This document shows positions 21,424 to 39,785 of a stretch of DNA of 39,785 nt, piece by piece. The notes beneath the pieces are model-generated. The model was given only the letters and a program-made list of their open reading frames with translations. It did not search any database and was not told the DNA's origin. The stretch spans positions 1-39,785 of the forward strand of contig CALBCY010000078.1 in assembly GCA_937927195.1 (NCBI GenBank), written 5' to 3'. The position numbers and the translations under genes are program-made. The stretch's first letter is position 1, and every line of letters begins with the position of its first letter. Origin of the DNA: an uncultured Chitinophagales bacterium. Its GTDB lineage: Bacteria; Bacteroidota; Bacteroidia; Chitinophagales; UBA2359.

Positions 21424-21777
21424 TATATTAATTTTAAAAGTTTAAAGATTTTTGAGTTTAAATACGTTTCTTTGTGACTGTAGAATTACTTATACGTTTA
21501 TTACACAGTATTTTATCAAAATTGGTAAATTATTGTTGAAAAAAAACAATATAATGGTTTTTTAATCAAAAAAAAGCCAATTGTTTTGAATAAACAGATA
21601 TAGAGAACTATATTTACAGGGCATATTTTTGTCTTTCCGTTTGATGCTAGTATAGAGGGAGTTCTAAAGTAAATTGACCATATTTTGACTCTTTTTGTGA
21701 CAGCTTTTTTTTTGAAAGTCCAATTATAAGCCGATTGAGTATTGACTAAAATTATTAAATTTAAAAAACTACACGAT
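21424..21777. other. Divergent intergenic region
   Basis: 354 A+T-rich bases between the divergent repeat-lipoprotein and OmpA-family genes. It must hold both promoters, but no convincing TTTG / TAnnTTTG pair at the usual spacing was found. No inverted repeat of note. Confidence 0.5.
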
Positions 21778-23647: not shown

Positions 23648-23857
23648 ATTTTAGTAATGTATGAAGCCGATAAAGCAGCTATCCCATTTGTTTTTTAAAT
23701 GACCGAAAAACAAACCATTTGATTTAAAACCTGTAATCAAATAGTCTTAAACTTATTTTCTTATTACTTTGTCTTTTCATTTCAATTTTTATTTACTGTT
23801 AATTGTTAAATTGCTTTCTAATTAATTTTCTACAAACTTTTATTGGGTTTCTATAGA

Positions 23858-24622
23858 ATGGTAAAAAATATTCCAGTACCAAATCAGATAAATGAGTTCT
23901 CTCCAATAGGATTGGCTGAACTTGACAGTGTTAAACTACTCAACCGTGTTGACACAAAATTTATATTGACCTACGATGTATTGGAGAAGGTTTTGGCCAT
24001 GGTAAGCAAGGATTACAGTGTTTTGGAATTAAATGGAATTCGTTACAACAATTACGAATCGATTTACTTTGATACTCCAGAATTGAAATTGTATCATCTG
24101 CACCACAATGGCAAAGGCAATCGTTTTAAATTGCGCTATAGGAAATATGTGGAGTCGAATCTTAGTTTTTTTGAAATTAAGACCAAAAGCAACAAAGGGA
24201 GGACCAGTAAAGCGAGAGTGAAAATCAATGATATTGCTTACAACTTTGTGCAAGAAGCACAAGATTTGATGTTTAAGGGAGCATTGGATTATAAAGCTTG
24301 GAACTTTCATCCGATGCTTGATATACTGTTTAAGAGAATGACCTTTGCGGACAAAGATTTTACAGAGCGAATGACCGTTGATCTTGCTTTGACCTTTAGA
24401 ACCAAGGAAAATCAATCGGATTTAGAAAGGTTGGTCATTGTTGAATTAAAGCAAGGAAGAAGGAATAGTAATTCAAAAATTTTCAAAGCTTTGAAGAGTT
24501 GTGGAGTTTTACCATATAATATGAGCAAGTACTGTTTGGGTATTATTTCATGTTATGATGGAGTGAAACAAAATCGATTTAAAAAGAAGTTGTTGACCCT
24601 GGAAAAAATGGGCGTACTGTAA
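23858..24622 (+). CDS. VTC-domain (polyphosphate polymerase-like) protein
   Basis: 254 residues, cytosolic. The fold is the VTC/CYTH-type triphosphate tunnel: NRVDTKFIL (about 30-38), NYESIYFDTPELKLYHLHHNGK (about 65-86), the basic strand KLRYRKY (about 91-97), FFEIKTKSNKGRTSKARV (about 105-122) and the late acidic-basic strand VIVELKQGRR. In yeast Vtc4 this domain makes polyphosphate from ATP; bacterial members are often annotated only as polyphosphate polymerase domain proteins. It starts at the ATG at 23858 rather than the TTG five codons earlier. It leads an operon with DUF4956 (10 nt gap) and DUF2490 genes, a grouping I recall from Bacteroidota and others. Confidence 0.86.
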   Translation: MVKNIPVPNQINEFSPIGLAELDSVKLLNRVDTKFILTYDVLEKVLAMVSKDYSVLELNGIRYNNYESIYFDTPELKLYHLHHNGKGNRFKLRYRKYVESNLSFFEIKTKSNKGRTSKARVKINDIAYNFVQEAQDLMFKGALDYKAWNFHPMLDILFKRMTFADKDFTERMTVDLALTFRTKENQSDLERLVIVELKQGRRNSNSKIFKALKSCGVLPYNMSKYCLGIISCYDGVKQNRFKKKLLTLEKMGVL

Positions 24623-24632
24623 ATAAAATAGA

Positions 24633-25331
24633 ATGATCTTAGAAGCAGCTGGAACCGGTATATTTGAAACTCTTGAGAATATCAGGATTTTTGGAATAAA
24701 AATCTTGGATACACAGGATTTCTTTAATTTGTTGTTTCGCCTGATAATAGATGTTTTTGTGACAACTATTATCGTTCGTTACATTTATTATCCTGTTAGA
24801 AGAGACAAGGATTATCTTTTTACTTTTCTTATTTTTAATATCCTCACCTTTTTTGTTTGTTACCTTTTGGGTGGAGTGAAACTGGAAATGGGCTTTGCCT
24901 TTGGTATTTTTGCTTTGTTCTCCTTACTTAGGTATAGAACCAACCCATTGCCCGTAAAGGAAATGACTTATTTGTTTGCTGTCATTGTTATTGCTGTGAT
25001 CAATGCGCTTAGTACAAAAAAAGTAAGTTATTTCGAGTTGTTTTTTACAAACTTTACGGTACTTGGACTTATTTATTACCTCGAACGTATTTGGTTTAAA
25101 TTTAAAGGCGCCTATCAAGTGATCACCTACGAAAAAATTGAAAATATAAAACCAGCCAACAAAGATTTACTAATTGCTGATCTTGAAGATAGAACTGGCT
25201 TGAAGATAATCGGTGTGGAGGTAGAAAGAATTAATTTTTTAAACGATACAGCAAAAATTTCTATCAATTACATTCCTGATGCCAATAACACGATGAGTGA
25301 ATCTGCCAGGAAAGCACAAGATTTAGAATAG
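24633..25331 (+). CDS. DUF4956 membrane protein
   Basis: 232 residues. Four to five hydrophobic helices lie at about 30-53, 62-80, 86-100, 110-127 and 134-150 (e.g. LFRLIIDVFVTTIIVRYIYYP). The signature GFAFGIFALFSLLRYRTNPLPVKEMTYLF (about 87-115) is characteristic of DUF4956. A cytosolic C-terminal domain of about 75 residues (YEKIENIKPANKDLLIADLEDRTGLKI) follows. The gene sits between the VTC-domain and DUF2490 genes with gaps of 10 and 2 nt. A sensible hypothesis is that it is the membrane partner of the VTC-domain protein, perhaps moving or sensing the polyphosphate product, but no biochemical role is shown by the sequence. Confidence 0.88.
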   Translation: MILEAAGTGIFETLENIRIFGIKILDTQDFFNLLFRLIIDVFVTTIIVRYIYYPVRRDKDYLFTFLIFNILTFFVCYLLGGVKLEMGFAFGIFALFSLLRYRTNPLPVKEMTYLFAVIVIAVINALSTKKVSYFELFFTNFTVLGLIYYLERIWFKFKGAYQVITYEKIENIKPANKDLLIADLEDRTGLKIIGVEVERINFLNDTAKISINYIPDANNTMSESARKAQDLE

Positions 25332-25333
25332 CA

Positions 25334-26041
25334 ATGAATCTAATGAATCTGTTTAAATACATATTTCCCCTTTTATTTTGCTTTGTTTTTTCCATATTAA
25401 TACCTTGCTACGCTCAAGGTGTTTATCAAGATGCAGAGCTTTGGTCTGAGATAACCTTAAAATCAGAAATCAATAAAAAATTGGGATTTGATTTCACTCC
25501 TTCTTTGAGATTAAATGAAAATTTAAGTGAGTTTAAACTCTTTTATCTTCAAGGACTGTTAAGTTATGATCTAGCCAAATGGTCCAATTTGAAATTGGGG
25601 TATCGGTTTGTCTTAAAATCAGAGGATCAAAACGACGCTCAAAGAATTTTTCTGGATTGGTCTACGAAAGAAAGATTCAAACCGATTAATTTAAAGAATA
25701 GGGTTAGATTTCAAATAGATGAAGAGATCTTGGAGGGTTGGAAATACTCAGAAGTTCTTGCCAGAGAAAAATTCAGTATTTCATACCAAAGGAAAAAGAA
25801 GCACAAGCTTGTTCCTGAAATAGGTGGTGAAATATTTTACAATGTTACTGATAAAAGCTTTGAAAAATATAGAATTTTTTCTGCCTTGGCTTATGATATG
25901 AAAAAAGGCCAAGAAATTTCACTAAAGTATATCTTCCAAAGAAGTTTAAATGACAGTCGTGTTTTTCAATCCCATATTTGGGGAGTTGCTTACTCCGTAA
26001 GAATTAAAAAGAAAAAGAAAATACAAAATAAAGCCGAATAG
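25334..26041 (+). CDS. DUF2490-type outer-membrane beta-barrel protein
   Basis: 235 residues with an N-terminal signal (MNLMNLFKYIFPLLFCFVFSILIPCYAQG). The mature part is a run of amphipathic strands typical of a small outer-membrane barrel: DAELWSEITLKSEINKKLGFDFTPSLRLNEN, SNLKLGYRFVLKSE, RNRVRFQIDEE, EIGGEIFYNV and ending in HIWGVAYSVRIKKKKK. WSE...KLG.....RL and the length point to DUF2490. Third gene of the VTC operon, 2 nt after the DUF4956 stop, so translationally linked. It implies that the operon product or signal involves the outer membrane. The ATG at 25334 is preferred; an ATG three codons later is also possible. Confidence 0.83.
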   Translation: MNLMNLFKYIFPLLFCFVFSILIPCYAQGVYQDAELWSEITLKSEINKKLGFDFTPSLRLNENLSEFKLFYLQGLLSYDLAKWSNLKLGYRFVLKSEDQNDAQRIFLDWSTKERFKPINLKNRVRFQIDEEILEGWKYSEVLAREKFSISYQRKKKHKLVPEIGGEIFYNVTDKSFEKYRIFSALAYDMKKGQEISLKYIFQRSLNDSRVFQSHIWGVAYSVRIKKKKKIQNKAE

Positions 26042-26442: not shown

Positions 26443-29400
26443 ATGGCGTACATGTATGAAAGCCCTTTAAGTTTTTATCTTTTTATTTCGATCTTAATTT
26501 TAGTATCTGTTCAAGTTCTCGCATTTGTAGAGAATAAGTCGAATAGGCAATTAGAATTTGCAGTTGATTCAACTGAACACGATCATGAGCATCCTGAAAA
26601 GAAGTTCTACGACTTTTATTATATCAATTCTGCTGCTGCTTCTGCAGCAAATGAAGAGTGTTTCAATATAGATTTTGAGGAAGGCAATCTCGATGGTTGG
26701 ACTGGGCAATTGGGCTCGATTCAACAAGCTGATGGCTATCCCTTAATTGAATCCATCGGTTTTGATCCAACGCAACAAATGGTTACTTCCCTCGATGAGG
26801 GCTTTGATTCACTCGCTGCGACCTGCAATATCTTTATCCCTAGGGTAGGGGAAGGTTTGCATTCACTTCGTTTGGGTGACAATGATGGTGGTTGGGAAGC
26901 CTCTTGGATTAGAAGGCCAATGTTGGTTACAGAAGAAAATAATTTGCTTTTATTGTCTTATGCAGTGGTTTTGGAAAATCCGGATCACAACGATTGGGAG
27001 CAGCCGAGGTTCTCCATGAAAATATTGGATGCCAACAACAATGTTCTTCCTTGCGGTGAATATTCAGTGACTGCCGCTGATGGAGTGGAAGGTTTCGAAA
27101 CTTGTGGAGACTGGGAAGTCCGAAATTGGACGACAGATCCTATTATATTGTCGCCATTTATGGGCCAAACAATTTTTATAGAATTTCTTGCTGGTGATTG
27201 CTCTCAAGGTGCTCATAGTGGTTATGCCTATATGGAAGCCCAATGCCAATCACTTGATGTTTTATACAGTGAGTTTTGTCCTGGAACCTCTATTACACTC
27301 GAAGGCCCACCAAACTTTTACAGTTATGAATGGTCCACCGGTGATGAGACCTCAAGTATTACAATAGACAATCCTGAACCAGGAGAATTTTATTCACTAA
27401 CGCTGACTTCTGTAAATGGATGTGAGGCACAGTTGGATTTTATAGTACCTGATCCAGGCTTATTAAACAGCATCGATGTTGAGTCAACTGAAGATGTTAT
27501 TTGTGATGGGGATAGTGTTAGCCTTAATGTTGTCGGAAACAACATTGCTTCTGTTTATTGGAATGAATTAGGAGTTTATGGACCAGCTCAAACGGTGAGT
27601 CCTTCTGAGACGACAACTTATACTATTTATTTGGAGGATGTGGCCGAATGTGAACCAGATACCATCGAATATACAGTTGAGGTTCGCGAAGCTGATACAC
27701 TTTCTATTCCGACTGATACAACGATTTGTATTGGGAACCCGCTTCCTCTTTCGGCGGGATACAATGGTATTTACGATCTGTATTGGAGTCCATTAGATAT
27801 TTATGCAACCGAGCTTGAAATTTTTCCAAATCAAACAACAAGCTATACAGTCAGTTCAACAGATCCAACTTCTTGTGCTCCACCACCAATGAGTATGACC
27901 GTTACCGTATTGGATCCAGCTCCCGTTTCTTATCAAATAGAAGATCAAACCATTTGTGAAGGTGGAACAGCAACCTTGAGCATTTCAGGAGAGAATATGG
28001 GTGAAATTTATTGGACAGATCTTGATGCAATGGGTCCAACTGTTGTATTGGAACCGGATGCTCCTGCATGGTACCATTTCACGATAGCCGACCAGGCTGA
28101 TTGCGAAGTTTTTGAAGATTCTGTTTTTCTAGATGTTATTTTTCTTGAACCAATCGAATACAATAATGACACTTTATCGGTTTGCCCTGGTGAGTCTGTG
28201 ACCATAGAGATCATTGGAGACAATGTAGGAAATGTTTACTGGTACGGAACTGGCGAAACTTCGAATTCTATAACAGTAAGTCCAGGTCAAACGACCAATT
28301 ATGAATTTCAAGCCTATGACTTATATGGTTGTTCCAATGTAGACGATGTAATAACTGTTGAGTTTACAGAGCAATCAAGTTTGTTTATCAGTTCCGAAAT
28401 TTCTACTATTTGTATAGGCGACGAATTGACGATGACTGCTGTCTATTCGGGTAATGCAGATTTGGTCTGGGAAGGATTGAATTTTTCTGAGTCGGAGATA
28501 ACAGTCATGCCTCAACAAAATACGACCTATACACTAAGCACAAATGACCAAACTGCTTGTGCACCAGATCCAGCCACTTTTTTTGTAGAAGTATTGAATC
28601 CTGCACCACTTTCATTTGCGATTGACGATCTAAGTGTTTGTCCAGGTGATCCTGTTACTTTGCAGATCAGTGGAGAAAATATGGGGGAAATAATTTGGAC
28701 AGACCTCAATCAAGCTGGGCCTACAGTTACGATTGCGCCTGCTATAAATGCAACGTATCATTTCACGATAGCTGATCTGGCTGATTGTCAAATTTTTGAG
28801 GATTCGGTAACAGTTGATATTTATGAAATAAATGACATTGAATACAACAATGACAACCTTTCTGTGTGCCCAGGTGAAACCATAACATTGGATATCAGCG
28901 GAGACAATGTTGGCAATGTTTACTGGTATGCTACTGGCCAAAATTCCAATCAAATTCAGGTAAGTCCAGTTCAAACGACTACTTATGAATTTCAGGTTTC
29001 CGATTTGTCTGGTTGTGTTCAGCAAAATGATGAAATTACAGTCGAATATACCGAACAATCCTCTTTATACATTACAGCCGATCAAACCATTATTTGTATT
29101 GGGAATGAATTGGAACTAAGCGCAAATTATTCGGGGAATGCAGATTTGATTTGGGAAGGACAAAATTCTTCGGAAGCACAAATATTGGTCAGCCCAACGC
29201 AAACAACAACTTATACAGTAAGCACCAATGATCAAACCTCTTGTGCACCTGATCCGACTAGCTTTACGGTCGAAGTTCTGAACCCCGCTCCACTTCAGTA
29301 TGAAATTTCTGATTTAAGTCTCTGTCCTACAGAAGTTGGCTTGTTGGAAATTACAGGGCAAAACTTAGGTGATATTTTTTGGGAAGAACTCAATCAGGCG

Positions 29401-32400
29401 GGCAATCAAATTCCATACTTACCAACTGAATCCACTTGGCTTCATTTTACAATAAATGACCAATTGCATTGTGAAAGTTTTTACGATTCTGTTTTTGTTG
29501 AATTAAATGCTCAAAATATTTTATACATAGAGCAAAGTGATACTGCCATATGTGAGGGACAATCATTGAACCTATCTGTCATTTATGATGGAGATGAAAC
29601 CATCAATTGGGTTGGACTCGATGAGACTGGTTCCAGTATTGCGTTTGCTCCTCAATTGAGTGGATGGGTTGTGGTTGAAATTATTGACAGTACTTTGTGT
29701 GCTCCCCCTGCAGATAGCATTTTTGTAACGGTCCACGATGCTGATATCGTATACAATGCAGATAGTCTGTTCTTCTGTTTGGGAGATGCTTTGAACCTTG
29801 AAATAGAAGGTAGCAATATTGAAACTGTTTATTGGCAAAGTCTGGATTCCTATGACAATCCTATAGCTACCTATCCAACAGAAAATACGCTGTATCCATT
29901 TGTTATTTCGGATGCCAATAATTGTACTGAAATATACGATACAATAGTTGCTGTTTTAACCGATCAGTTTGAATTAAACATTGAGCAAAATCCTATAACG
30001 ATTTGCATTGGAGAAGAAATAAGTCTTACTGCTTTTTATGATGGTTCTGCAGATTTGTTTTGGCCCGAATTAAATTTGTACGGTGACTCCGTTAGTTTTG
30101 AGCCACAAGAATCGCAAACCTATCAAGTCGTGTCGCTTGATGAATCAAACTGTGCCGCCGACCCTGATTTTATATTCATCGAAGTGCTCAATTTTCCAGC
30201 AGTTTCCTATCAATTAAATGACATAGAAATTTGTTTGGGGACAGAGATTGTTCTTGCTCCAAATCCTGAAAATTTCACTCAGATATATTGGCCGCAATTT
30301 GACAGCAATGAGGAGATTATTACTTTCTCGCCTGATTCAAGTGGCTATTTTTATTTTGAAATTGAAGGCTTGGGAGATTGCCAATTGGTAACGGATTCTG
30401 TTTACGTAACAGTAAACCCAGCCGATCAATTGGAAGTTAGTCAATTCGATACAACTATTTGTATAGGGAATTCGATTCCTATTGAAATATTCTACAATGG
30501 AGATGCACCTTTGTTGTGGAATGGCGAAATACTCGCAAACAATAGCTTTGAGATTATACCCTTGGATACGACTGTTTATACGGTTAGTGTGATGGACGAA
30601 ACAACTTGTGCTCCTGAACCAATAGAGTTTACAATTACAGTGTTAGATCCTCCTCCTATGGTCATTGAAATTGATGATCAACAGATTATTTGTTTGGGAG
30701 ACAGTGCGAATTTGACAGTTTTAGGCGAAAATTTTGGTGAGGTATATTGGCCAAGTTTGGATACCACAACGAGTAAAGTAACCGTTGCGCCAGATACGAC
30801 GACTGTTTATGTTTTCTATGTTTCAGATTTGTACAATTGTGAAATGGTGGTTGATAGTTTTACTGTGCTGGTTGATATAGTATTCCCTCCATTGGTTTCA
30901 CCAGAAAGGGGAGATACTTTGATCTGTGATGGGGACACTGCCTTCTTATCAATTAGTGGGTCGAATGTTGAAACTGTATATTGGCCGGATCTCGATATTT
31001 ATGTTCCTGAGTTAGCTGTCACTCCTTCAGAATCTACAGTTTATCGATTTGTGGTTTGGGACAGTTTGGGTTGTCAAATTGTGGAGGATTCTGTTTTTGT
31101 AAATGTGAACCCTTTGCCTGAAATTTCATTTGAACAAGAGGACCCAGATGTCTGTATTCATGATACCATAGTTTTATCAGTTCTAGGGGAAAATATAGAC
31201 ACTTTCCATTGGTTAATTCAAGATGCTTTTGGTCCAACAATTGAATTGGCACCTGATTCTACTCAAACTTTATTTGTACAAGGGACAGATGTCTATGGTT
31301 GTCGATCTTTAGAAACACCAATAACTGTTTTTGTTTTGGTGCCTCCTGAAATGGAATACGAGATTGAAGATAAAACGGTCTGTTTCAATGATACTGTTCA
31401 ATTAGAAGTTGCTGGTGATTTTATTGGTGCAGCTTATTGGTCAGATTTTGAACAGGACGGGTTTGCCGTAGAGACGGTAGCGAGTCAAGATACAAGCTAT
31501 GAAATTTTGGTAAGTGATGTATTTGGTTGTGATACGGTGCTTGAAAAAGTAATGGTTGAGGTGCTTCCTTTACCAGAAGTAATGGTTGATGATTATGAAA
31601 TAACCGTTTGCGAAGAAGAAAGAATTTTATTAGAAGTTGAAAATGAAGAGTACAGTGAGATCTATTGGTTCGAATTGAATGAATATGGTCCACAGGTAGA
31701 ATTGTTGGCCTCAGATAGTGTTGAAATAAATGTTCAGGTGACAGATTTGAATCTTTGTAGGTCTGTTGTTTCACCAATACAAGTAAATGTCAATCCGCTT
31801 CCACAAATAAATATATTGCAAAACGATTTTGTTATTTGTTTGGGTGAAACGCTTGAGATTGAAATAGAAAGTTTCAATACAGAACTCGGAATGGTCAATT
31901 GGAATGGTTTAGTGAACGAGGAGAATGTGTTTACTTCCACACCATCTGTTTCGCAAAATTTTGAAATAGAAGCCTGGGATATTTATGGTTGTAGTTCCAA
32001 AAAGCAAGACATTCCAATCGAAGTTTTAACCGCTCCTTTGATTGAATTAGGGCCAGATTTATGTGAGTCGCCCGGTGTTGAGCTGGACGCTTCATTTCCC
32101 GGTGCAGAATACCAATGGCAAGACGGGAATGATGAATCAATTTTTTCAGTGGAACAGTCTGGCCTATATACTGTCGAGGTTGCGAATCAGTGCGGTGTTT
32201 TCATGGACTCTGTCTGGGTTTATATAGATGGTTGTCAATTCAAATTTGCAACAGTATTTTCTCCAAATGGAGATGGACTGCATGATCGCTTTGGTCCAAT
32301 AGATTATTGTATCAATAACAGGGTCAAAAATATCAAATTTAGGATATTCAATAGATGGGGAAATAAAATTTACGAGTCGAGCCAATTGGATCAAACTTGG

Positions 32401-32520
32401 GATGGGCGTTTCCGTGGCAAAGAAGTTGGAACTGGTGTTTATGTTTGGTTCTTGGAATACTACAGTGAAGTATGTGATCAGTGGTTCTTTAAGAAAGGGA
32501 ATGTTTCTTTGATAAAATAG
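26443..32520 (+). CDS. Giant Ig-like repeat adhesin with gliding-type (CHU_C) T9SS C-terminus
   Basis: 2025 residues. After an N-terminal hydrophobic export segment (about 8-28) comes a jelly-roll/MAM-like domain at about 72-272 (CFNIDFEEGNLDGWTGQ, GLHSLRLGDNDGGW). Then about 20 Ig-like units of 76 residues run to about residue 1930. Each unit has an (I/V)C-xG start, a central YW or W, PxxTTxY and a late D...C. The units form a higher-order repeat: units five to seven closely match units eight to ten, with a period of 684 bp (three units). The final 94 residues are the CHU_C gliding-associated domain (ATVFSPNGDGLHDRFG, RIFNRWGNKIYESS, WDGRFRGKEVGTGVY), which targets T9SS export and surface anchoring. 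Likely an adhesin or gliding filament; ligand unknown. The ATG at 26452 is an alternative start. Confidence 0.92.
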   Translation: MAYMYESPLSFYLFISILILVSVQVLAFVENKSNRQLEFAVDSTEHDHEHPEKKFYDFYYINSAAASAANEECFNIDFEEGNLDGWTGQLGSIQQADGYPLIESIGFDPTQQMVTSLDEGFDSLAATCNIFIPRVGEGLHSLRLGDNDGGWEASWIRRPMLVTEENNLLLLSYAVVLENPDHNDWEQPRFSMKILDANNNVLPCGEYSVTAADGVEGFETCGDWEVRNWTTDPIILSPFMGQTIFIEFLAGDCSQGAHSGYAYMEAQCQSLDVLYSEFCPGTSITLEGPPNFYSYEWSTGDETSSITIDNPEPGEFYSLTLTSVNGCEAQLDFIVPDPGLLNSIDVESTEDVICDGDSVSLNVVGNNIASVYWNELGVYGPAQTVSPSETTTYTIYLEDVAECEPDTIEYTVEVREADTLSIPTDTTICIGNPLPLSAGYNGIYDLYWSPLDIYATELEIFPNQTTSYTVSSTDPTSCAPPPMSMTVTVLDPAPVSYQIEDQTICEGGTATLSISGENMGEIYWTDLDAMGPTVVLEPDAPAWYHFTIADQADCEVFEDSVFLDVIFLEPIEYNNDTLSVCPGESVTIEIIGDNVGNVYWYGTGETSNSITVSPGQTTNYEFQAYDLYGCSNVDDVITVEFTEQSSLFISSEISTICIGDELTMTAVYSGNADLVWEGLNFSESEITVMPQQNTTYTLSTNDQTACAPDPATFFVEVLNPAPLSFAIDDLSVCPGDPVTLQISGENMGEIIWTDLNQAGPTVTIAPAINATYHFTIADLADCQIFEDSVTVDIYEINDIEYNNDNLSVCPGETITLDISGDNVGNVYWYATGQNSNQIQVSPVQTTTYEFQVSDLSGCVQQNDEITVEYTEQSSLYITADQTIICIGNELELSANYSGNADLIWEGQNSSEAQILVSPTQTTTYTVSTNDQTSCAPDPTSFTVEVLNPAPLQYEISDLSLCPTEVGLLEITGQNLGDIFWEELNQAGNQIPYLPTESTWLHFTINDQLHCESFYDSVFVELNAQNILYIEQSDTAICEGQSLNLSVIYDGDETINWVGLDETGSSIAFAPQLSGWVVVEIIDSTLCAPPADSIFVTVHDADIVYNADSLFFCLGDALNLEIEGSNIETVYWQSLDSYDNPIATYPTENTLYPFVISDANNCTEIYDTIVAVLTDQFELNIEQNPITICIGEEISLTAFYDGSADLFWPELNLYGDSVSFEPQESQTYQVVSLDESNCAADPDFIFIEVLNFPAVSYQLNDIEICLGTEIVLAPNPENFTQIYWPQFDSNEEIITFSPDSSGYFYFEIEGLGDCQLVTDSVYVTVNPADQLEVSQFDTTICIGNSIPIEIFYNGDAPLLWNGEILANNSFEIIPLDTTVYTVSVMDETTCAPEPIEFTITVLDPPPMVIEIDDQQIICLGDSANLTVLGENFGEVYWPSLDTTTSKVTVAPDTTTVYVFYVSDLYNCEMVVDSFTVLVDIVFPPLVSPERGDTLICDGDTAFLSISGSNVETVYWPDLDIYVPELAVTPSESTVYRFVVWDSLGCQIVEDSVFVNVNPLPEISFEQEDPDVCIHDTIVLSVLGENIDTFHWLIQDAFGPTIELAPDSTQTLFVQGTDVYGCRSLETPITVFVLVPPEMEYEIEDKTVCFNDTVQLEVAGDFIGAAYWSDFEQDGFAVETVASQDTSYEILVSDVFGCDTVLEKVMVEVLPLPEVMVDDYEITVCEEERILLEVENEEYSEIYWFELNEYGPQVELLASDSVEINVQVTDLNLCRSVVSPIQVNVNPLPQINILQNDFVICLGETLEIEIESFNTELGMVNWNGLVNEENVFTSTPSVSQNFEIEAWDIYGCSSKKQDIPIEVLTAPLIELGPDLCESPGVELDASFPGAEYQWQDGNDESIFSVEQSGLYTVEVANQCGVFMDSVWVYIDGCQFKFATVFSPNGDGLHDRFGPIDYCINNRVKNIKFRIFNRWGNKIYESSQLDQTWDGRFRGKEVGTGVYVWFLEYYSEVCDQWFFKKGNVSLIK

Positions 32521-32688: not shown

Positions 32689-33201
32689 TTAAGCAATACT
32701 TGACTCTGCAATGAACTGATCGATCAAAAGCTGGAAGGCCTGCTCGACGTTTGTCCCAGATTTCGCGCTGGTAACTATATCAGTTATCACGCCCAGTTCT
32801 GAAGAGTTATCAGCAACGGGTTGGTCAAGAAGATCAGACTTGTTGCCAATGACAATTTTTTTAAGATTGGGAGAAGTTTCAAGAAAGCCTTTGAACTCAT
32901 TACAGATTCTGTTGAAGGTTTCCTTTCTAGTAAGATCATAGACTAAAATGATTCCATGTGAACCTTTTAAATAGGACTTTGGAATATTTTGGTAGGTGAC
33001 GATGTCAGCAATGTCCCAAATAAGAAGATGAACAATTTTATCTTCATATTCAATGGTTTTATTCTTGATATTAACTCCAATGGTTGATAAATACTCCTCG
33101 GAAAATAATCCTGTAGTGTATTTAGTAACGAGAGAGGTTTTTCCAACTGCGAATGCACCGATCACCAATATCTTTTTTCGTATAATAGTTTTATTCTCCA
33201 C
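32689..33201 (-). CDS. Ras/Rab-like small GTPase with altered G3 motif
   Basis: 170-residue cytosolic GTP-binding protein. Motifs: P-loop GAFAVGKTS (15-23), switch I Thr in STIGVNIKNK (Thr40), G3 as WDIADIVTY (62-70), G4 NKSD (120-123) and G5 TSAK (144-147). The layout STIGV...WD...Y.KG..GIILVYDLTR..TF is strikingly Rab-like. The canonical DTAGQ is replaced by DIADI: both the Gly and the catalytic Gln are missing, so intrinsic hydrolysis should be poor. There is no C-terminal prenylation cysteine. The start is GTG, overlapping the upstream gene by 11 bp, which indicates translational coupling with the longin-like protein. Not MglA by motif. Bacterial Ras-superfamily GTPases of this sort have no established role. 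Confidence 0.88.
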   Translation of the reverse strand: MENKTIIRKKILVIGAFAVGKTSLVTKYTTGLFSEEYLSTIGVNIKNKTIEYEDKIVHLLIWDIADIVTYQNIPKSYLKGSHGIILVYDLTRKETFNRICNEFKGFLETSPNLKKIVIGNKSDLLDQPVADNSSELGVITDIVTSAKSGTNVEQAFQLLIDQFIAESSIA

Positions 33202-34111
33202 GAATAAGTTCTTTTAAAGCCTGAGACATTTTTTTCTCGCTTAACAAATCTGACTTTCCTTCAAGGTTATTCAAATGTTGCTCTGCGAAATCCAATAGCC
33301 TTTCGTGTAATTCAGATTTGAAGGTCTCCGTTACTGGACCGTTGATAACTGTAGCTGAATAACATGAAAAAAAGTTGTAAATAATTATATTGTAACTATC
33401 AAACTGAATGGTGTTTAATCCCTCTTCTTTTTGACCCATTACATCTTCACCAAATGATTTCAAGGCTGTCAACAATCCTACCAACATCTGTTGGTCTAGT
33501 TGGAACGGCCCATGATCTGCATAACTCGCCAGGATAAATCCAGTGTCTTTTTCAATAATGAATATTTCTTCAATGTTGTTGAAGAATGCCTTGTTTAATA
33601 GTCTTCCACTTTGGGGTAATTGTCGAGGTTCTTTTTTTAATAATTTAACTCTTACAAATTCTATTGCCTTTACTTTTAATGATCCATTTTTAAAGTCTTC
33701 CTTTAAGGCTTGAAAGGTTTTGTCGAAAGTTTCTACCCAAACGTTGATCTCGGAATAGGCAAATTTTTTGACCATTTTTCCGATGATTGGATAAAAAGCA
33801 TCCACCATTTCATGCTCATTATTTTTAATCTGACTGCTGATGGCTTCCCTAACAACATTGCCGTACAATTCCGGAAATTTCAACTTTATCTCATCCAAAT
33901 GCTCTTTGATAATTGGTGTTACAAGCTCTTTAAATTTATTGTCATCTAATATTTCCCTAATCTGGTTTAGATCCTTTTTTAAGTTATTCTGCTCCTTGCG
34001 CTCTTCATCTAAAATCAAGTTTTTTAGTAACTCAAAATTGTCTTCTGACTTATTGAATCTCTCCCGATCCTCATTGTCAATCTTAGTGTCAGATGGATTA
34101 TAAGTACTCAT
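33191..34111 (-). CDS. Coiled-coil plus longin/roadblock-like protein, GTPase partner
   Basis: 306 residues, soluble. A charged coiled coil (about 12-56) leads into a helical region (about 60-150) with the phrase VVREAISSQIKNNEHEMVDAFYPIIGKMVKKF. The C-terminal part (about 175-290) reads EEIFIIEKDTGFILASYADHG, QMLVGLLTALKSFGEDVM, and a beta stretch ending in LLDFAEQHL. This is the pattern of a longin/roadblock-type domain, the fold used by partners of Ras-like GTPases. In Proteobacteria I recall similar sequences fused to a C-terminal OmpA domain; that domain is absent here. It overlaps the GTPase gene by 11 bp and follows the coiled-coil gene by 20 nt. A GTPase regulator or effector role is inferred. 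Confidence 0.72.
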   Translation of the reverse strand: MSTYNPSDTKIDNEDRERFNKSEDNFELLKNLILDEERKEQNNLKKDLNQIREILDDNKFKELVTPIIKEHLDEIKLKFPELYGNVVREAISSQIKNNEHEMVDAFYPIIGKMVKKFAYSEINVWVETFDKTFQALKEDFKNGSLKVKAIEFVRVKLLKKEPRQLPQSGRLLNKAFFNNIEEIFIIEKDTGFILASYADHGPFQLDQQMLVGLLTALKSFGEDVMGQKEEGLNTIQFDSYNIIIYNFFSCYSATVINGPVTETFKSELHERLLDFAEQHLNNLEGKSDLLSEKKMSQALKELIRGE

Positions 34112-34131
34112 GTTGTTTTTTGGAGCATGAA

Positions 34132-34482
34132 TTACTTCTTCAAGGAATTTCCAAACTTGATTATAGTCTCAGCAATTTTACTGCGATCATCAACATTGGA
34201 TTTTTTAACTTGACTAAGTTCTTTCTCAAAATCCTTGCTTATAGTTTTTAAACTCTTCTCTATATTTTTGGACATTTTGTCATCGAAAGAAACAATTTTG
34301 CTGTTCATTTCTTTGGTAGAAGAATCAAATTTTTTCTCTATGGTTTTCTTGAAATCAATCAATTGATCTTCAATTCTACTCAATTGGACTTCCTGAGATT
34401 CTAATCGGTCCTCAATCCTTTGGATCTCTTCTCCAAAGATTAAATGCTTGATCGCATCAATTTTTGATAATTGTTGGTTCAT
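34132..34482 (-). CDS. Small coiled-coil protein, first gene of GTPase operon
   Basis: 116 residues, almost entirely heptad-rich helix. After a short head (KIDAIKHLIFGEEIQRIEDRL) that ends in an LIFGEE motif, residues about 21-92 are continuous coiled coil (LESQEVQLSRIEDQLIDF, KTISKDFEKELSQVKKS), and the tail is DRSKIAETIIKFGNSLKK. The start MNQQLSKIDAIKHLIFGEE is similar in style to small coiled-coil genes I recall beside bacterial Rab-like GTPases, but the family is not named. It probably makes a scaffold for the longin-like protein and the GTPase in the same operon. Confidence 0.78.
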   Translation of the reverse strand: MNQQLSKIDAIKHLIFGEEIQRIEDRLESQEVQLSRIEDQLIDFKKTIEKKFDSSTKEMNSKIVSFDDKMSKNIEKSLKTISKDFEKELSQVKKSNVDDRSKIAETIIKFGNSLKK

Positions 34483-35036
34483 GGTAAACTAGTTATTAGT
34501 AGGTTTATATTCGTACAACTAAAAAATTCCTAACCGAAAGGTTTGGCAAATTTTCAATAAAGAAGGGGAATGCTTTTATATACGCAACTATTTCTTTAAA
34601 GTTAGGGGCACAAGTTCAATGTAGAATATTGCAAATTTTTATCAAGTCAATTTATATGCTGTAATTCTGTCCTTATGCTCAATACAAATACTGATATTTG
34701 ATGATATGAAAAGAGATCATTAACATATTTTTTTGTTTTTAATTGGTTTTTTTTTATCATAAATCAATTATAAATGAATACAAACATTTTTTTTGATTTG
34801 GCGTAAAACCAATTGATTTTAATATTGTACAGGCTATTTTGACCCCTTCAAAGCAATCCCCCTCTCTGCGGAACATTAACCAGTAGCCATTTTAGAATCT
34901 TGTTACTTTATTATTTTCCTCCTATTTTCTCCCTTTCATTCTCTCTTTAATGAGTGAGAATTCCCCTTCATTAACCCTCTTTAGTGATTTATTAATCTCT
35001 GATCTTAGAGAAAAAAAATGTGGAAATAGCTGAAAT
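34483..35036. other. Divergent intergenic region with candidate promoter
   Basis: 554 bases between the GTPase operon (minus) and the PKD protein (plus). A plausible plus-strand promoter is TTTG (34797-34800), 19 nt, then TAATATTG (34820-34827), one mismatch from TAnnTTTG; this would leave a leader of about 200 nt. No gene or stable hairpin is seen. The block 34880-34985 is pyrimidine rich (CCCTCTCTGC, CTCCTATTTTCTCCC). Confidence 0.45.
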
Positions 35037-38000
35037 ATGATGCCCAGAAAATTCTTCGTCTTTTGTATATGTTTTTTATTTTACTCAAATGTTTTCTCTC
35101 AGACGCTCGATCTAAAATTTTCAACTGAAATAGACTGTGACAATAATCAGTACCTCGTAACTTATCAAATTAAAGTTGCTGAGTTGGGGGAATTTGGAAA
35201 TATTGGTAATTCTTCAATACTGATGAATTACAACGCCGATGCACTTGACTACAACAGTTATCAATCAATCAATTTTGATGAATCTGACAATTGTTATTTT
35301 GGGGTTGCTCCAACTTGGGGTCCACATGGTATTGATGGCTTAATGGATGGTTCTTTCAATGTTACTATTTTGATCAATGCCATCCTTCCGGAAGGAGCGG
35401 ATAGCATGAGTTGTCCAACTATTTATAACGATTGGATTGACATTGGCAGAATTGTGTTTGACATAGAAAACGATGAGTTGACATCTGGCTTGATGTTTCC
35501 AGAAGTAGATTATGCCATAAGTTTTAACAGCGCTATTCCGAACAACGGTACGGAACAATTGGCAGAAGGCAATTTCTCAAATTTAGACGAAGCACTAACA
35601 TGCGCAGCCTCAGTCGAACCCACTGCCACGATTGAAGCTTCGGTTATGGATGGGCCTGCAGAATTAGAGGTTACTTTCGATGGAACGCAATCCTTTGATT
35701 CTGATGGAACAATAATTTCATGGCTTTGGAATTTTGGAGATGGTAATTCGAGTTTAGATCCCAATCCTACTCACATCTATGAAACAGAAGGTGATTATAT
35801 CGTAACCCTCACTGTTATAGATAACGACGGCTTAGAAGGTCTTTCAAATGTTATTATAGAAGTTGGCCCACCTATGCAAGCTCCTATAGCTGATTGCTTT
35901 GTTGACTTTTTGGAAGGTTTTGCACCTTTAACAATAAATGCAGATGGTAGTGTTTCCACAGACATTGATGGTTCCATAATATCTTATCAATGGAATTTTG
36001 GTGATGGTGAAGGAGTACTAGGCGCTTCTGTTTCTCATACATATATGGAACCTGGTATTTACCAGTTGGAGTTGATTGTTACTGACAATGATGATTTAAG
36101 CGATATTCATATTGTGGAAATTGTTGTTAATGCAGTGGAGATTCCTCCGGTTGCTCAATTCTCACATTCTGATATAAGTGATTTTGCTCCGATAGAAGTT
36201 TCCTTTGACGGAAGTCTTTCTTTTGATAGTGATAATGAAATTGTAGACTTTGCTTGGGATTTTGGTGATGGAAATACAGGATCCGGTGAATTGCAAAGTC
36301 ATACTTTTCAAAATGCAGGAACTTTCAATGTGGTTTTGACGGTAACGGATGAAAGTAACCTTAGTGCTTCTGTTTCTCAAGAAATAGTAGTTGTTGATGC
36401 TCCTGCTGAACCAACGGCTGATATAGAAGTTGATTTCAGTAGTGGAACTGCCCCTTTGGCAGTTAATTTTAATGCTTCAAATTCCAACGATCCTGATGGT
36501 TCGATTGTTCAATACGATTGGGACTTCGCCGATGGAACAACTGGTACAGGAGAAACCCTTAGCCATGTTTTTACAGAAGGTGGATTTTATAGTGTAAGTC
36601 TCCTTGTGACAGACAATAGTGGAATGACTGCACAAGCAGAAATTACTATAGTCGTTGATAGTCCATTGCCGCCAACGGCTACAATAACAGCAGATCCAAC
36701 AGAAGGCTTGGCACCATTGCCAGTCAGTTTTGACGGTTCAGGCTCAACAGATCCAGACGGTTCAATCGTAACTTATTCATGGGACTTAGGAGATGGCACG
36801 ACGAGTGATGAAATGACGGTTGAACACACTTACACAGAAAGTGGAAGTTATACAGTAACCCTGATGGTGACTGATGATCAGGATTTAACATCAACAACAG
36901 AAACAACAATAACAGTAACAAGTGCAGCCAGTCCAACGGCTACAATAACAGCAGATCCAACAGAAGGTCTTGCCCCATTGCCAGTCAGTTTTGACGGTTC
37001 AGGCTCAACAGATCCAGACGGTTCAATCGTATCATATTCATGGGACTTAGGAGATGGCACGACGAGTGATGAAATGACAGTTGAACACATTTACACAGAA
37101 AGTGGCAGCTATACAGTAACCCTGACGGTGACTGATGATCAGGATTTAATTTCAACAACAGAAGCAACAATAACGGTAACAAGTGCAGAAGAACCAACCG
37201 CAGTTATAAATGCAGATCCAACATTAGGGGAAACACCCCTTCCTGTTTCATTAGATGCCAGTGATTCTTCTGATCCAGATGGAAACTTAGTTGAATTCAA
37301 TTGGGACTTGGGTAACGGAATGACTGGTTCAGGAGAAACGATGGATCATACCTTTACTGAAGTAGGAGAACACATGGTCATTCTTGAAGTTATGGATGAT
37401 CAGGGAATGATGGATTCAGATACTTTGATGATTGTAGTTTTGGAAACAGGATTAGCCCCTTGCGATACAATTTACAATAACATTGACCTAAACAGTCAAG
37501 AATTTCTTTGCTCTTCAAATGGAGTCAGTCTTTTTGAATTGTTTGGTATTGTCGAAAGTCCAATTTATACATCCGATGGAATACTTGTCGACAATGCTGA
37601 TGATTTTGATTTTACCAACAGCTCTTGTGAAATTCAATTGTATCAATTTTACATTCAAAGTTCAAGTTTTGATATTACCAATTGCCAATATGATGTGTTT
37701 ACAACGGACCTTTTAGTTTCAGTCTCACCAGAAACAAATTTAGAATATTCCATTACAGAGGATTGTGGAATCGAATTCCAATACAATTGTTCGGACTTTG
37801 ATTTGTATTTCGATGGCGAGATAATTGACAATAGTCAGGTGTTCTATCCAGACTTTTCTGTCAGTACTTCCTTCTTCGCTATTGACAATAAAGGTCTTTG
37901 TGGCCCAACCTCTTTGTCGATAGAAATGGATTGCATCGATGAAACAGGTTGTGATTCAACGCCGTCAATATGTGTGGAGGCTGGAAAAACTTCAAGCATC

Positions 38001-38837
38001 TGTCCTGAGTTCTGCAATTTTGAATCAGATGATTACATAATCATTTCAGCAAGGACCGACTATCATTGCAGTATTTCATTGCTAAGCGATAATTGTATAG
38101 CCTACGAACCATTAGGTGTTCAAGATGGAACAGATACCAGCCTTGAAATAATCGCTTGCCGCCAATCTTCAGAAAACACCATAGAATGTGATACTTTGAT
38201 TTATGAAGTCGTTATTGGAGAATGCAGCTTAAATGAAACTTCAGAGTCTTGTATTAAATATGAAGCGTTCTGTACTCAACCTGCAAGCAGTCTTGATTTT
38301 TGCGTTGAGTATTGTTCTGATGATAAAATTATGACCCATGTTAGTGCTGGAGATTTAAGACCAGTACAACCACTTGACAATTTTTGTGTAAGGTACACTG
38401 CTGTAGAAGGATTTGGATCGGGAAGGGATACTGTAATGGTCGTTGCTTGCAATCAAAATCAAGTATGTGATACAATCTATGCCATTATTGAAATCAATGA
38501 CGAATGCGATGAAGATCCGTTCAGATTGGTAGATGATAATTGTTATGAAAATTTGCCAAATATGTTTAGCCCGAATAACGATGGCAACAATGATGTATGG
38601 AAATTTAATGATCAGGTCAATTGTCAAGGAAATTTTGAAATTGAATTGTTAATTTTTGATAGAATGGGACAAGTCGTTTATCAAAACATATCCTCCCATA
38701 TTGGAGATTTGGTATGGAACGGTAACTTCCTTGATTCTGAAGAAAAAGTAAGTGAAGGCGCCTATTTTTATGCCTTAAGACTGAAAAATGAAAACAACCT
38801 CATAAACCGTAGTGGTTTTATTGAAGTGAGGTACTAG
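35037..38837 (+). CDS. PKD-repeat surface protein with CHU_C T9SS C-terminus
   Basis: 1266 residues. Signal peptide MMPRKFFVFCICFLFYSNVFSQ, then a cohesin-like beta domain (about 22-190: SSILMNYNADALDY, SDNCYFGVAPTW, NDWIDIGRIVFDI), then seven PKD domains of 81-87 residues (about 195-803), each with the W(N/D)(F/L)GDG or similar core followed by H.Y...G.Y.V.L.VTD. PKD domains 5 and 6 are near-identical at DNA level with a 261-bp period. Two Cys-rich modules follow (about 980-1060 and 1080-1155; CPEFC, FCVEYC). The end is CHU_C (NMFSPNNDGNNDVWKF, IFDRMGQVVYQN) for T9SS export. The start is tandem ATG-ATG. Likely a cell-surface adhesion or gliding protein; ligand unknown. A paralogue follows downstream. 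Confidence 0.92.
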   Translation: MMPRKFFVFCICFLFYSNVFSQTLDLKFSTEIDCDNNQYLVTYQIKVAELGEFGNIGNSSILMNYNADALDYNSYQSINFDESDNCYFGVAPTWGPHGIDGLMDGSFNVTILINAILPEGADSMSCPTIYNDWIDIGRIVFDIENDELTSGLMFPEVDYAISFNSAIPNNGTEQLAEGNFSNLDEALTCAASVEPTATIEASVMDGPAELEVTFDGTQSFDSDGTIISWLWNFGDGNSSLDPNPTHIYETEGDYIVTLTVIDNDGLEGLSNVIIEVGPPMQAPIADCFVDFLEGFAPLTINADGSVSTDIDGSIISYQWNFGDGEGVLGASVSHTYMEPGIYQLELIVTDNDDLSDIHIVEIVVNAVEIPPVAQFSHSDISDFAPIEVSFDGSLSFDSDNEIVDFAWDFGDGNTGSGELQSHTFQNAGTFNVVLTVTDESNLSASVSQEIVVVDAPAEPTADIEVDFSSGTAPLAVNFNASNSNDPDGSIVQYDWDFADGTTGTGETLSHVFTEGGFYSVSLLVTDNSGMTAQAEITIVVDSPLPPTATITADPTEGLAPLPVSFDGSGSTDPDGSIVTYSWDLGDGTTSDEMTVEHTYTESGSYTVTLMVTDDQDLTSTTETTITVTSAASPTATITADPTEGLAPLPVSFDGSGSTDPDGSIVSYSWDLGDGTTSDEMTVEHIYTESGSYTVTLTVTDDQDLISTTEATITVTSAEEPTAVINADPTLGETPLPVSLDASDSSDPDGNLVEFNWDLGNGMTGSGETMDHTFTEVGEHMVILEVMDDQGMMDSDTLMIVVLETGLAPCDTIYNNIDLNSQEFLCSSNGVSLFELFGIVESPIYTSDGILVDNADDFDFTNSSCEIQLYQFYIQSSSFDITNCQYDVFTTDLLVSVSPETNLEYSITEDCGIEFQYNCSDFDLYFDGEIIDNSQVFYPDFSVSTSFFAIDNKGLCGPTSLSIEMDCIDETGCDSTPSICVEAGKTSSICPEFCNFESDDYIIISARTDYHCSISLLSDNCIAYEPLGVQDGTDTSLEIIACRQSSENTIECDTLIYEVVIGECSLNETSESCIKYEAFCTQPASSLDFCVEYCSDDKIMTHVSAGDLRPVQPLDNFCVRYTAVEGFGSGRDTVMVVACNQNQVCDTIYAIIEINDECDEDPFRLVDDNCYENLPNMFSPNNDGNNDVWKFNDQVNCQGNFEIELLIFDRMGQVVYQNISSHIGDLVWNGNFLDSEEKVSEGAYFYALRLKNENNLINRSGFIEVRY
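36672..37193 (+). repeat. Tandem 261-bp duplication of a PKD domain
   Basis: Copy one (36672-36932) and copy two (36933-37193) each begin CCAACGGCTACAATAACAGC and differ at only about 16-20 positions by eye. Each encodes one 87-residue PKD domain. The third, diverged unit follows at exactly the same 261-bp phase (37194). A recent tandem duplication inside the coding region, in frame. Confidence 0.85.
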
Positions 38838-39086: not shown

Positions 39087-39785
39087 ATGGAAAAATTTCC
39101 CTCTGGAACTGCCAGATATTTGATGCTTGTCATTATATTAATGATAACAAGTTGGGCGGATATAAATGATAATGGTTTAAAGGCCAGTAATACGAATGTT
39201 ACAAATAGTGTAAGTCCTGTTACGAATTCCAAAATTCCACTTTTGGTAAACGATCCAACTCTTGAACTTCGGTTTGTAACCAATCAGGGTTGTTCAGATA
39301 CTTATTGTGCGACCATCCAAATACGGGTGAAAGAAGTAGGGGACTCAACCCAATTGGGAACCAGCTCAATCTTATTCAATTACAATCCCAATGCTCTAGC
39401 ATATTCAAGTTATACATCTTTGAACTTTGATGGTTCGGATAACTGCTTTTTTGGTGGTTTGGGTCCTGCATGGGAGGAACATGGCTCTGATGGATTGGCC
39501 TCGGGCACATTCAACATTACTTTGACGATTCTTGGTTTGGGTTTGGACTACAGTTGTCCGATAATAAAAAATGATTGGATAGATGTTGGAACTATATGTT
39601 TTGATATTCTAAGTCAAGACTTTGGAAACCTGACTTTCTCAACTGACCCTCAACAAATAAGTTTCAATGCAAATGAAGAAGATGAAAATGGAGAATTCCC
39701 AAGCATTCCTGTCGACTTTGTCAATATGGGGAATGTTAATGAAATTCCTATCGGAAATGTTCCATTTCCTGAAATTACAAACGAT
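39087..39785 (+). CDS. Surface protein with cohesin-like N-domain, partial (runs off window)
   Basis: The reading frame starts at the ATG at 39087 and stays open for 233 codons to the last base, so the gene is cut by the window edge. A hydrophobic segment (about 11-23, RYLMLVIILMITSWA) is the export signal. Residues about 57-200 match the N-terminal domain of the preceding PKD protein: LELRFVTNQGC, GTSSILFNYNPNALAYSSY, FDGSDNCFFGG, SGTFNITLTI, CPIIKNDWIDVGTICFDI. That makes the two genes tandem paralogues, so a PKD or similar repeat region and a T9SS C-terminus may follow outside the window (inferred). It begins 249 nt after the previous stop, past a terminator, so it probably has its own promoter. 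Confidence 0.88.
   Translation, partial: MEKFPSGTARYLMLVIILMITSWADINDNGLKASNTNVTNSVSPVTNSKIPLLVNDPTLELRFVTNQGCSDTYCATIQIRVKEVGDSTQLGTSSILFNYNPNALAYSSYTSLNFDGSDNCFFGGLGPAWEEHGSDGLASGTFNITLTILGLGLDYSCPIIKNDWIDVGTICFDILSQDFGNLTFSTDPQQISFNANEEDENGEFPSIPVDFVNMGNVNEIPIGNVPFPEITND

Follow-up and report, generated by a model that had tools for sequence, protein, structure and literature searches.

Introduction

GEFs, GAPs, scaffolds and coats all make use of longin and roadblock folds. The described system that lies closest to the locus reported here is the Group 1 Rup module, which was recognized in 2014 from gene neighborhoods alone (Wuichet and Sogaard-Andersen, PMC4316618). By that paper's account, Group 1 Rup GTPases are members of the Ras superfamily without the G3 glutamine, and their genes neighbor those for a coiled-coil protein, for a protein with an unnamed domain that is often followed by a transmembrane helix and OmpA, and for an output protein, typically with GGDEF/EAL domains or a histidine kinase, that bears an invariant N-terminal glutamine. 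Bacteroidetes and Nostoc are named there as carriers, and as of that account no Rup protein had been characterized (PMC4316618). The terms "Longin" and "PAS domain" are absent from its main text, and among the titles and abstract starts listed for openly licensed PMC papers we found no report that names or characterizes a longin domain in Rup systems.

Pairs of small GTPases and proteins of these folds are also described elsewhere. In MglA and its homologues a Thr replaces a conserved Asp (PMC3000849). Intu and Mon1-Ccz1 need their first longin domains, which follow the longin order of structural elements, for GEF activity (PMC6864590). Longins have been traced in one proposal to MglB-like domains, when eukaryotes arose (PMC3521125), and in another to archaea (PMC10933270), and a review table lists "Longin/Roadblock" as present in bacteria, the two not being separated (PMC4917890). 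In Asgard MK-D1, according to one study, the genes for Rab-like GTPases and longins are generally not found in common operons (PMC10933270).

Results

A Three-Gene Operon between Two Giant Surface Proteins

The stretch of DNA analyzed here (the window) is 39,785 nucleotides long and comes from an uncultured Chitinophagales bacterium. The features that concern us are these:

32689-33201, minus strand: 170-aa Ras-superfamily GTPase (Rab-like, Rup-type), with a GTG start
33001-33018, minus strand: G3/switch II motif WDIADI of the GTPase, with Asp66 at the position of Ras Gly60 and Ile67 at that of Gln61
33191-34111, minus strand: 306-aa protein with a helical N-terminal half and a predicted C-terminal longin domain
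33194-33580, minus strand: predicted longin domain, residues 178-306 of the 306-aa protein (from the predicted model)
33632-34078, minus strand: helical N-terminal half, residues 12-160 of the 306-aa protein (from the model's secondary structure)
34132-34482, minus strand: 116-aa protein, likely a coiled coil, first gene of the operon (from the ORF; N-terminal motif IDAIKHLIFG)
34483-35036, no strand: 554-bp intergenic region from which the operon and the T9SS gene diverge (from ORF coordinates)
35037-38837, plus strand: 1266-aa T9SS type B surface protein with PKD-like repeats, divergent to the operon

The first-pass annotation had described three packed minus-strand genes lying between two giant T9SS proteins, and both parts of that description hold. 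The ORFs are separated by a gap of 20 nt between the genes for the 116-aa and 306-aa proteins and joined by an overlap of 11 bp between those for the 306-aa protein and the GTPase, and the flanking giants, of 2025 aa (26443-32520) and 1266 aa, both exceed the cut-off of TIGR04131, the T9SS type B sorting domain. Elsewhere in the window, a 615-aa OmpA-family protein (21742-23589), with no other Pfam match at E <= 1e-5, lies about 9 kb from the operon, and the first part of a further ORF (39087-39785), cut short by the contig end, groups with the giant T9SS proteins.

Probable Kinship with the Group 1 Rup Module

Pfam assigns the 170-aa protein to the Ras family (E 2.9e-34), and a sequence search of the PDB puts Rab1 proteins at the top (E 1.3e-31), in keeping with its initial description as Rab-like. 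It is a single-domain GTPase with eukaryote-like motifs, of which G1, G2, G4 and G5 are intact and G3 is altered; Ile67 occupies the place of the G3 glutamine. A Pfam-Ras search of the genome yielded five places, among which the operon GTPase was the sole strong match (E 1.3e-33); the other four (E 4.1e-5 to 9.9e-4) lie in open frames of 295-1037 aa and, judged by length, are probably translation- or ribosome-type GTPases.

The neighbors of the GTPase gene have counterparts in the Group 1 description as well. The 116-aa protein, which from its sequence is likely to be a coiled coil, corresponds to the coiled-coil neighbor; its hydropathy peak is 0.2, in line with a cytoplasmic protein, and its weak matches to Pfam families were put down to helical composition. 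The 306-aa protein corresponds to the neighbor with the unnamed domain: a profile built from the window's family matches P0025, a 632-aa OmpA fusion, at E 4.1e-36, and P0025 is related in turn to, among others, proteins of the OmpA family in Sulfurovum and Nitratifractor. "OmpA family" proteins with the unnamed domain are numerous, 238 having been matched in one search. On a Nostoc plasmid and on plasmids of Mesorhizobium and Rhizobium the gene order is coiled coil, longin fusion, GTPase and output gene, the last three being named in the Mesorhizobium record as an OmpA family protein, a Rab family GTPase and an adenylate/guanylate cyclase domain protein.

The first-pass annotation had the longin-type part fused to OmpA in Proteobacteria and separate here, and we found an OmpA fusion in other bacteria and a separate protein in the window. 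Pfam recognizes OmpA in the fusions of Nostoc and Mesorhizobium and in the proteins (589-636 aa) of five loci that belong to other classes of the phylum (L156 falls just under the cut-off), and each of the fusions has a TM-like hydropathy peak of 1.9-2.5. For the 306-aa protein taken by itself Pfam gave no match, OmpA included, and it has no TM-like hydropathy peak; such a peak (>= 1.8) was found in none of the 100 Bacteroidota longin proteins of our main set. Two soluble 273-aa longin relatives (P0004 and P0011) are named "cell envelope biogenesis protein OmpA" with no Pfam domain listed, a name apparently taken over from the fused forms.

Thus, the locus resembles the Group 1 Rup module in its Ras-superfamily GTPase without a G3 glutamine, its coiled-coil protein and its conserved protein with the unnamed domain, whereas it differs in having no linked fourth gene with an invariant glutamine, no transmembrane helix or OmpA, and an Asp at the Gly60 position. 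We consider kinship between the two highly probable. Because the linked fourth gene is missing in the window, we class the operon as divergent kin of the Group 1 Rup modules and not as one of them. The module, for which the first-pass annotation gave no established function, is nevertheless already described: it matches the Group 1 neighborhood as presented in PMC4316618, in which a fourth gene is normally present.

A short N-terminal motif recurs across both the coiled-coil and the longin families (IKHLIFG and LKNLILD in the two proteins of the operon). A regular expression for it, written post hoc, matched 100 of 103 coiled-coil proteins and 55 of 105 longin proteins, as compared with about one each in shuffles, and we treat the shared motif as a lead only.

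A Predicted Longin Domain in the 306-aa Protein

The gene for the 306-aa protein is present in single copy in the genome, which is 93.5% complete. The AF2 model of its product is of moderate quality (pLDDT 71.1, pTM 0.41), with the helical half (residues 12-160) varying from pLDDT 48 to 82 over ten-residue blocks. In the C-terminal domain the model places strands at residues 180-187, 193-198, 234-237, 240-246 and 250-257 and helices at 207-225, 262-280 and 289-304. The predicted order of elements is thus two strands, a helix, three strands and two helices, which is the longin order (PMC6864590). Entries from TRAPP, Fuzzy-Inturned, Mon1-Ccz1, BLOC-3, AP and SNARE proteins made up most of the 50 matches listed when the model was searched with Foldseek, all of them remote in sequence (6-14% identity). 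We take the matched chains to be longins. The Myxococcus roadblock protein MglC was also matched (7ct3, 8.7e-4).

Pfam pointed weakly in the same direction. When 74 of the 80 Bacteroidota relatives described below were scanned (L046, L060, L065, L069, L096 and the incomplete L117 were set aside), Fuz_longin_1 was matched by 18 (best E 7.7e-4) and Intu_longin_1 by eight (best E 1.5e-3), every other family being matched by four or fewer. These matches are weak (15.5 bits as against a cut-off of 26.1 bits in one example), and unrelated families match single members equally well or better (Pox_D5 at 2.4e-4 in 1 of 74; DOMON at 0.0019 in 2 of 22). The longin domain of the window itself matched no Pfam family at E <= 1, and no curated longin model was passed. 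The first-pass annotation had proposed a longin/roadblock-type domain at this C terminus, with which the predicted structure agrees, and we think it very likely that the domain has a longin fold.

Other identities were considered and set aside. An NCBIfam match to VpdC (E 2.2e-4; 19.4 bits as against a cut-off of 1000) was attributed to helical composition, and the PDB profile-sequence matches to AP-4 sigma (E 0.1) and 3k6q_A (E 0.26) were not significant.

Conservation of the Gene Set

Homologues of the 306-aa protein were found in 25 of 149 genomes of the order, representing 19 of 82 genera; in the window's own family the gene is present in 18 genomes, G085 being the one listed genome without it. 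At the order-level loci the GTPase gene lies near the 306-aa gene in all 25 cases, and the 116-aa gene was recognized, in a single-sequence search, in 17 of 25. A profile search of the phylum found the family in 13 of 296 genomes. A scan of a genome collection found at least 539 relatives in the stretches examined, of which we kept the 80 titled as Bacteroidota or its subgroups. No relative was confirmed on viral contigs.

We then compared 100 distinct loci, leaving out those from repeat genomes (L046, L060, L065, L069 and L096). In 99 of the 100 the GTPase gene lies no more than 2 kb downstream of the longin-type gene and on its strand, the exception (L117) being at a contig end, and a coiled-coil gene, a relative of that for the 116-aa protein, lies within 2.5 kb before the longin-type gene in 98. 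The longin and GTPase genes overlap or are separated by 30 bp or less in 71 of 99 cases, with a median spacing of -6 bp. A fourth gene was linked in 84 loci, as judged with our first profile, and the whole set was present in 82. With the GTPase gene so placed in 99 of 100 loci, the arrangement is more than chance, and the conserved co-occurrence that had been put forward as a check on the module is thereby upheld. Among the five loci from other classes, the GTPase gene is co-directional in L155 and L157 and divergent in L156 and L159, and none was found in L158; the tight order is therefore best kept within the class Bacteroidia.

An apparent duplication of the module is seen in six Flavobacteriaceae loci (L071, L075, L089, L095, L099 and L113), where two copies of a Rup-type GTPase gene flank a gene for a PAS protein of about 200 aa.

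The GTPase Switch and a Proposed Role for the Longin Protein

Glutamine is absent at position 61 in 102 of 104 aligned GTPases (five rows repeat genomes). Glycine is retained at the Ras Gly60 position in 98 of the 104 and is replaced by Asp in six, including that of the window. These six form one clade (support 100/98) in a tree from which rows of less than 150 aa and the repeat loci L046, L060, L065, L069 and L096 were left out, and its members carry Ile or Val for Gln61. From Ras biochemistry, a double change at Gly60 and Gln61 slows hydrolysis. By analogy, the GTPase of this clade would be a slow or non-hydrolyzing switch and, given these changes, may act mainly through nucleotide-dependent binding.

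How might such a switch be set? We propose that the predicted longin-domain protein binds the Rab-like GTPase and promotes GTP loading, so that it would be exchange (a GEF-like activity), rather than hydrolysis, that is promoted. A dimer of the longin domain would form the platform for the GTPase, and assembly of the complex would fall to the 116-aa protein together with the helices in the N-terminal half of the 306-aa protein.

Alternatively, the longin protein might act on the GTPase as MglB does on MglA: as a GAP or co-GAP it would complete the active site lacking the G3 glutamine and so switch the GTPase off. The absence of Gln61 from nearly all of the aligned GTPases is what such a GAP would make good, an unknown GAP that supplies a residue in trans has been proposed for Rup proteins (PMC4316618), and roadblock domains, which are circularly permuted relatives of longins, are GAPs for MglA (PMC3521125). 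Nonetheless, we judge this alternative rather unlikely: the Pfam families most often matched are first longin domains of Rab GEF proteins, no Arg or Gln is found among the invariant and near-invariant columns printed for the longin protein (48 rows; 22 domains), and the GTPase of the window lacks Gly60 too.

The Fourth Gene and Its Predicted PAS Domain

In Bacteroidota, residues 1-130 of the fourth protein are predicted to adopt a PAS fold (pLDDT 94.9), with PAS/LOV matches to WalK, PpsR and YtvA in Foldseek. The output regions vary among a kinase, a kinase plus a receiver with or without Hpt, no recognizable kinase, and PAS alone, with several PAS proteins being just 131-148 aa long or without a Pfam kinase match; elsewhere, Mesorhizobium has a cyclase as its output and L155 a sigma-54 activator. 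Hence the conserved part of the fourth gene seems from these sequences to be the PAS domain and not the kinase. Eight loci (L035, L037, L061, L063, L067, L084, L101 and L112) have a PAS domain alone (132-148 aa) as the fourth gene, and in L043 and L079 the fourth protein is 362-373 aa long and has no Pfam match at E <= 0.001.

A Gln is near-invariant in the fourth protein across 31 aligned rows (Q117 of L037, in a QQERNE-type motif), and one MAFFT alignment puts a Gln at the corresponding site of the output proteins of Nostoc and Mesorhizobium. The PAS profile gave no match at E <= 10 to the fourth proteins of Nostoc and rhizobia and none to those of the five other-class loci, the equivalence of all of which is drawn from position and a forced alignment. 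In the PAS model the Gln sits on the long C-terminal helix (residues 106-132). Such a helix is the usual output helix of PAS proteins, and the position of the Gln on it argues against the idea, advanced in 2014, that it completes the active site of the GTPase and, as far as the model goes, for a role in signal output. That idea would make the PAS-type protein itself the GAP, with its near-invariant Gln acting in the GTPase active site, as is hinted at in PMC4316618, and the recurrence of the residue in the Nostoc and Mesorhizobium proteins would fit it. We regard it as improbable, given that the Gln is on a helix that leads into the kinase, where one is present, and not on a loop, and that no PAS protein was detected in some of the genomes that carry the three genes.

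Is there a PAS protein in the window's own genome? The PAS profile found no match beside the operon in the window, G104, G133 or G001, the last having just downstream a different sensor kinase, which escapes the profile; the contigs of G092 and G110 end 2 and 67 bases after the GTPase gene, which leaves four of the six loci for this comparison. A whole-genome search of the Asp clade, however, found PAS kinases in the window's genome (G000), G092, G110 and G133, and none in G104 (82% complete) or G001 (97%). The protein in G000 is a 370-aa PAS-histidine kinase on another contig (G000:C269:5157-6269; E 1.8e-22) with HisKA and HATPase_c domains, which may work with the operon GTPase. Its named neighbors (an RlmN-type methyltransferase, phosphoglucomutase and DUF3667) give no clue to its role. 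In these unlinked kinases, that of G000 included, one MAFFT alignment shows the QQERNE-type motif to be broken, the residue that replaces the Gln being ambiguous. The kinase genes of G000, G110 and G133 lie inside other contigs, and in G092 the kinase gene starts at a contig end and the GTPase gene ends at one, with no sequence overlap, so that the two could be linked there. As PAS kinases turn up elsewhere in Asp-clade genomes, we describe the PAS-kinase gene of the window as unlinked to the operon rather than lost.

We considered and rejected a tie between Asp at the Gly60 position and loss of the fourth protein. PAS genes lie beside the operon in 0 of 4 loci with the Asp and in 86 of 91 others (Fisher p 4.0e-5; the 86 comprise 84 matches of the first profile and the degenerate copies of G065 and G076, and L012 and L091 were left out as being at contig ends), but the six Asp GTPases form one clade, so that any association with absence of the fourth gene represents one event. 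Besides their degenerate linked copies, G065 and G076 have kinases elsewhere too, and genomes with a good linked PAS copy showed no second significant match.

Three genomes, G019 and G053 (both listed as 100% complete) and G009 (92%), keep the three genes and have no PAS match at E <= 0.01 (0.17 in G053), and for this reason the PAS protein may be dispensable or have diverged past detection. Conversely, G085, the 86% complete family member with no longin gene detected, has a relative of the PAS kinase (G085:C222:6912-7235), which may act alone unless the operon is missing from the assembly.

A Rab-like Switch Possibly Wired to a PAS Sensor

Bringing these parts together, we suggest that the GTP-loaded GTPase would control a PAS-type sensor protein, for which there is a candidate on another contig in the case of the window, and that the output would be the PAS signal helix and, where present, the kinase. 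The reading of the operon as a Group 1 Rup-type module in which the longin protein loads the GTPase, acting as an exchange factor, and so steers a PAS sensor seems to us to stand about evenly between right and wrong. More tentatively, Group 1 Rup modules could be to bacteria what the Rab/longin-GEF unit is to eukaryotes, a working pair of Rab-type GTPase and longin-type exchange factor. Their longin would be canonical, not circularly permuted, and of the Fuz/Mon1 LD1 type, the pair would act on PAS sensor kinases and not on vesicles, and the clade of the window would have a non-hydrolyzing, kinase-split switch; this wider proposal is possible, and we incline somewhat against it.

The comparison with eukaryotes has two sides. 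The window shares with the tri-longin-domain Rab GEFs (Fuzzy-Inturned, Mon1-Ccz1 and Hps1-Hps4) and the longin subunits of TRAPP a predicted longin fold, a weak Pfam likeness to first longin domains and a Rab-like GTPase partner, but it has a single predicted longin domain behind a helical half, encoded in a bacterial operon. Similarly, MglA-MglB, the polarity switch of Myxococcus, and the actinobacterial conservons resemble the window in that a small GTPase gene lies beside that for a longin/roadblock-type regulator, and they differ from it in that the GTPase of the window keeps its G3 Asp and its partner has, in the model, the canonical longin helix order and not that of a roadblock. The residue replaced by Thr in MglA is, we presume, this same G3 Asp, which the window GTPase retains as Asp63 (WDIAD), in accord with the earlier remark that it lacks MglA features. 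Robl_LC7, the MglB-type roadblock family, had no match in the window's genome (93.5% complete), in a search whose control was positive in 3 of 14 genomes. Finally, whereas the Rab-like GTPase and longin genes of Asgard MK-D1 are reported to lie generally in separate operons, longin-type and GTPase genes lie together in 99 of 100 loci here. If our reading is true, a widespread bacterial operon joins a Rab-like GTPase to a canonical longin, and the pairing would be older than supposed or exchanged between domains; it would also give a candidate role, as a GTPase regulator, to the unnamed domain of the "OmpA family" proteins.

A Local Link to a T9SS Surface Protein

The first-pass annotation had further suggested that the operon may control surface or gliding machinery, and we asked how widely the T9SS genes accompany it. 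A relative of the 1266-aa protein is divergent to the operon in the window and in G092, G104 and G110, with its N-terminal approximately 200 residues being 44-48% identical to those of the window protein and with long further similarity in G092 and G104; the 2025-aa protein has just the sorting-domain end in common with the divergent giants. Outside these three genomes, a tblastn search with the first 205 residues against L026-L125 (100 loci, including five repeats, with flanks of limited length) gave one weak 27% match, in G122 (L036), 3 kb from the operon. The suggestion of surface or gliding control is thus weakly sustained, by the three close relatives of the window and little beyond them, and the T9SS-operon link is, on these comparisons of sequence, a local one. 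The 554-bp intergenic region could possibly hold regulation common to the operon and the T9SS gene. It might be argued that the operon, whatever its signaling ancestry, has been re-used as a local regulator of the secretion, anchoring or expression of the divergent T9SS protein, as its place beside that gene in four genomes would allow; yet the four are close relatives, so that their common synteny may be inherited without function, and elsewhere there is the single 27% match. We find this proposal quite improbable and prefer the module in which the longin protein would load the GTPase.

Genes for VTC-domain, DUF4956 and DUF2490 proteins lie in a row at 23843-26041 in the window, and in G104 (L027:47-2253) their relatives adjoin the Rup operon, with no 2025-aa protein between.
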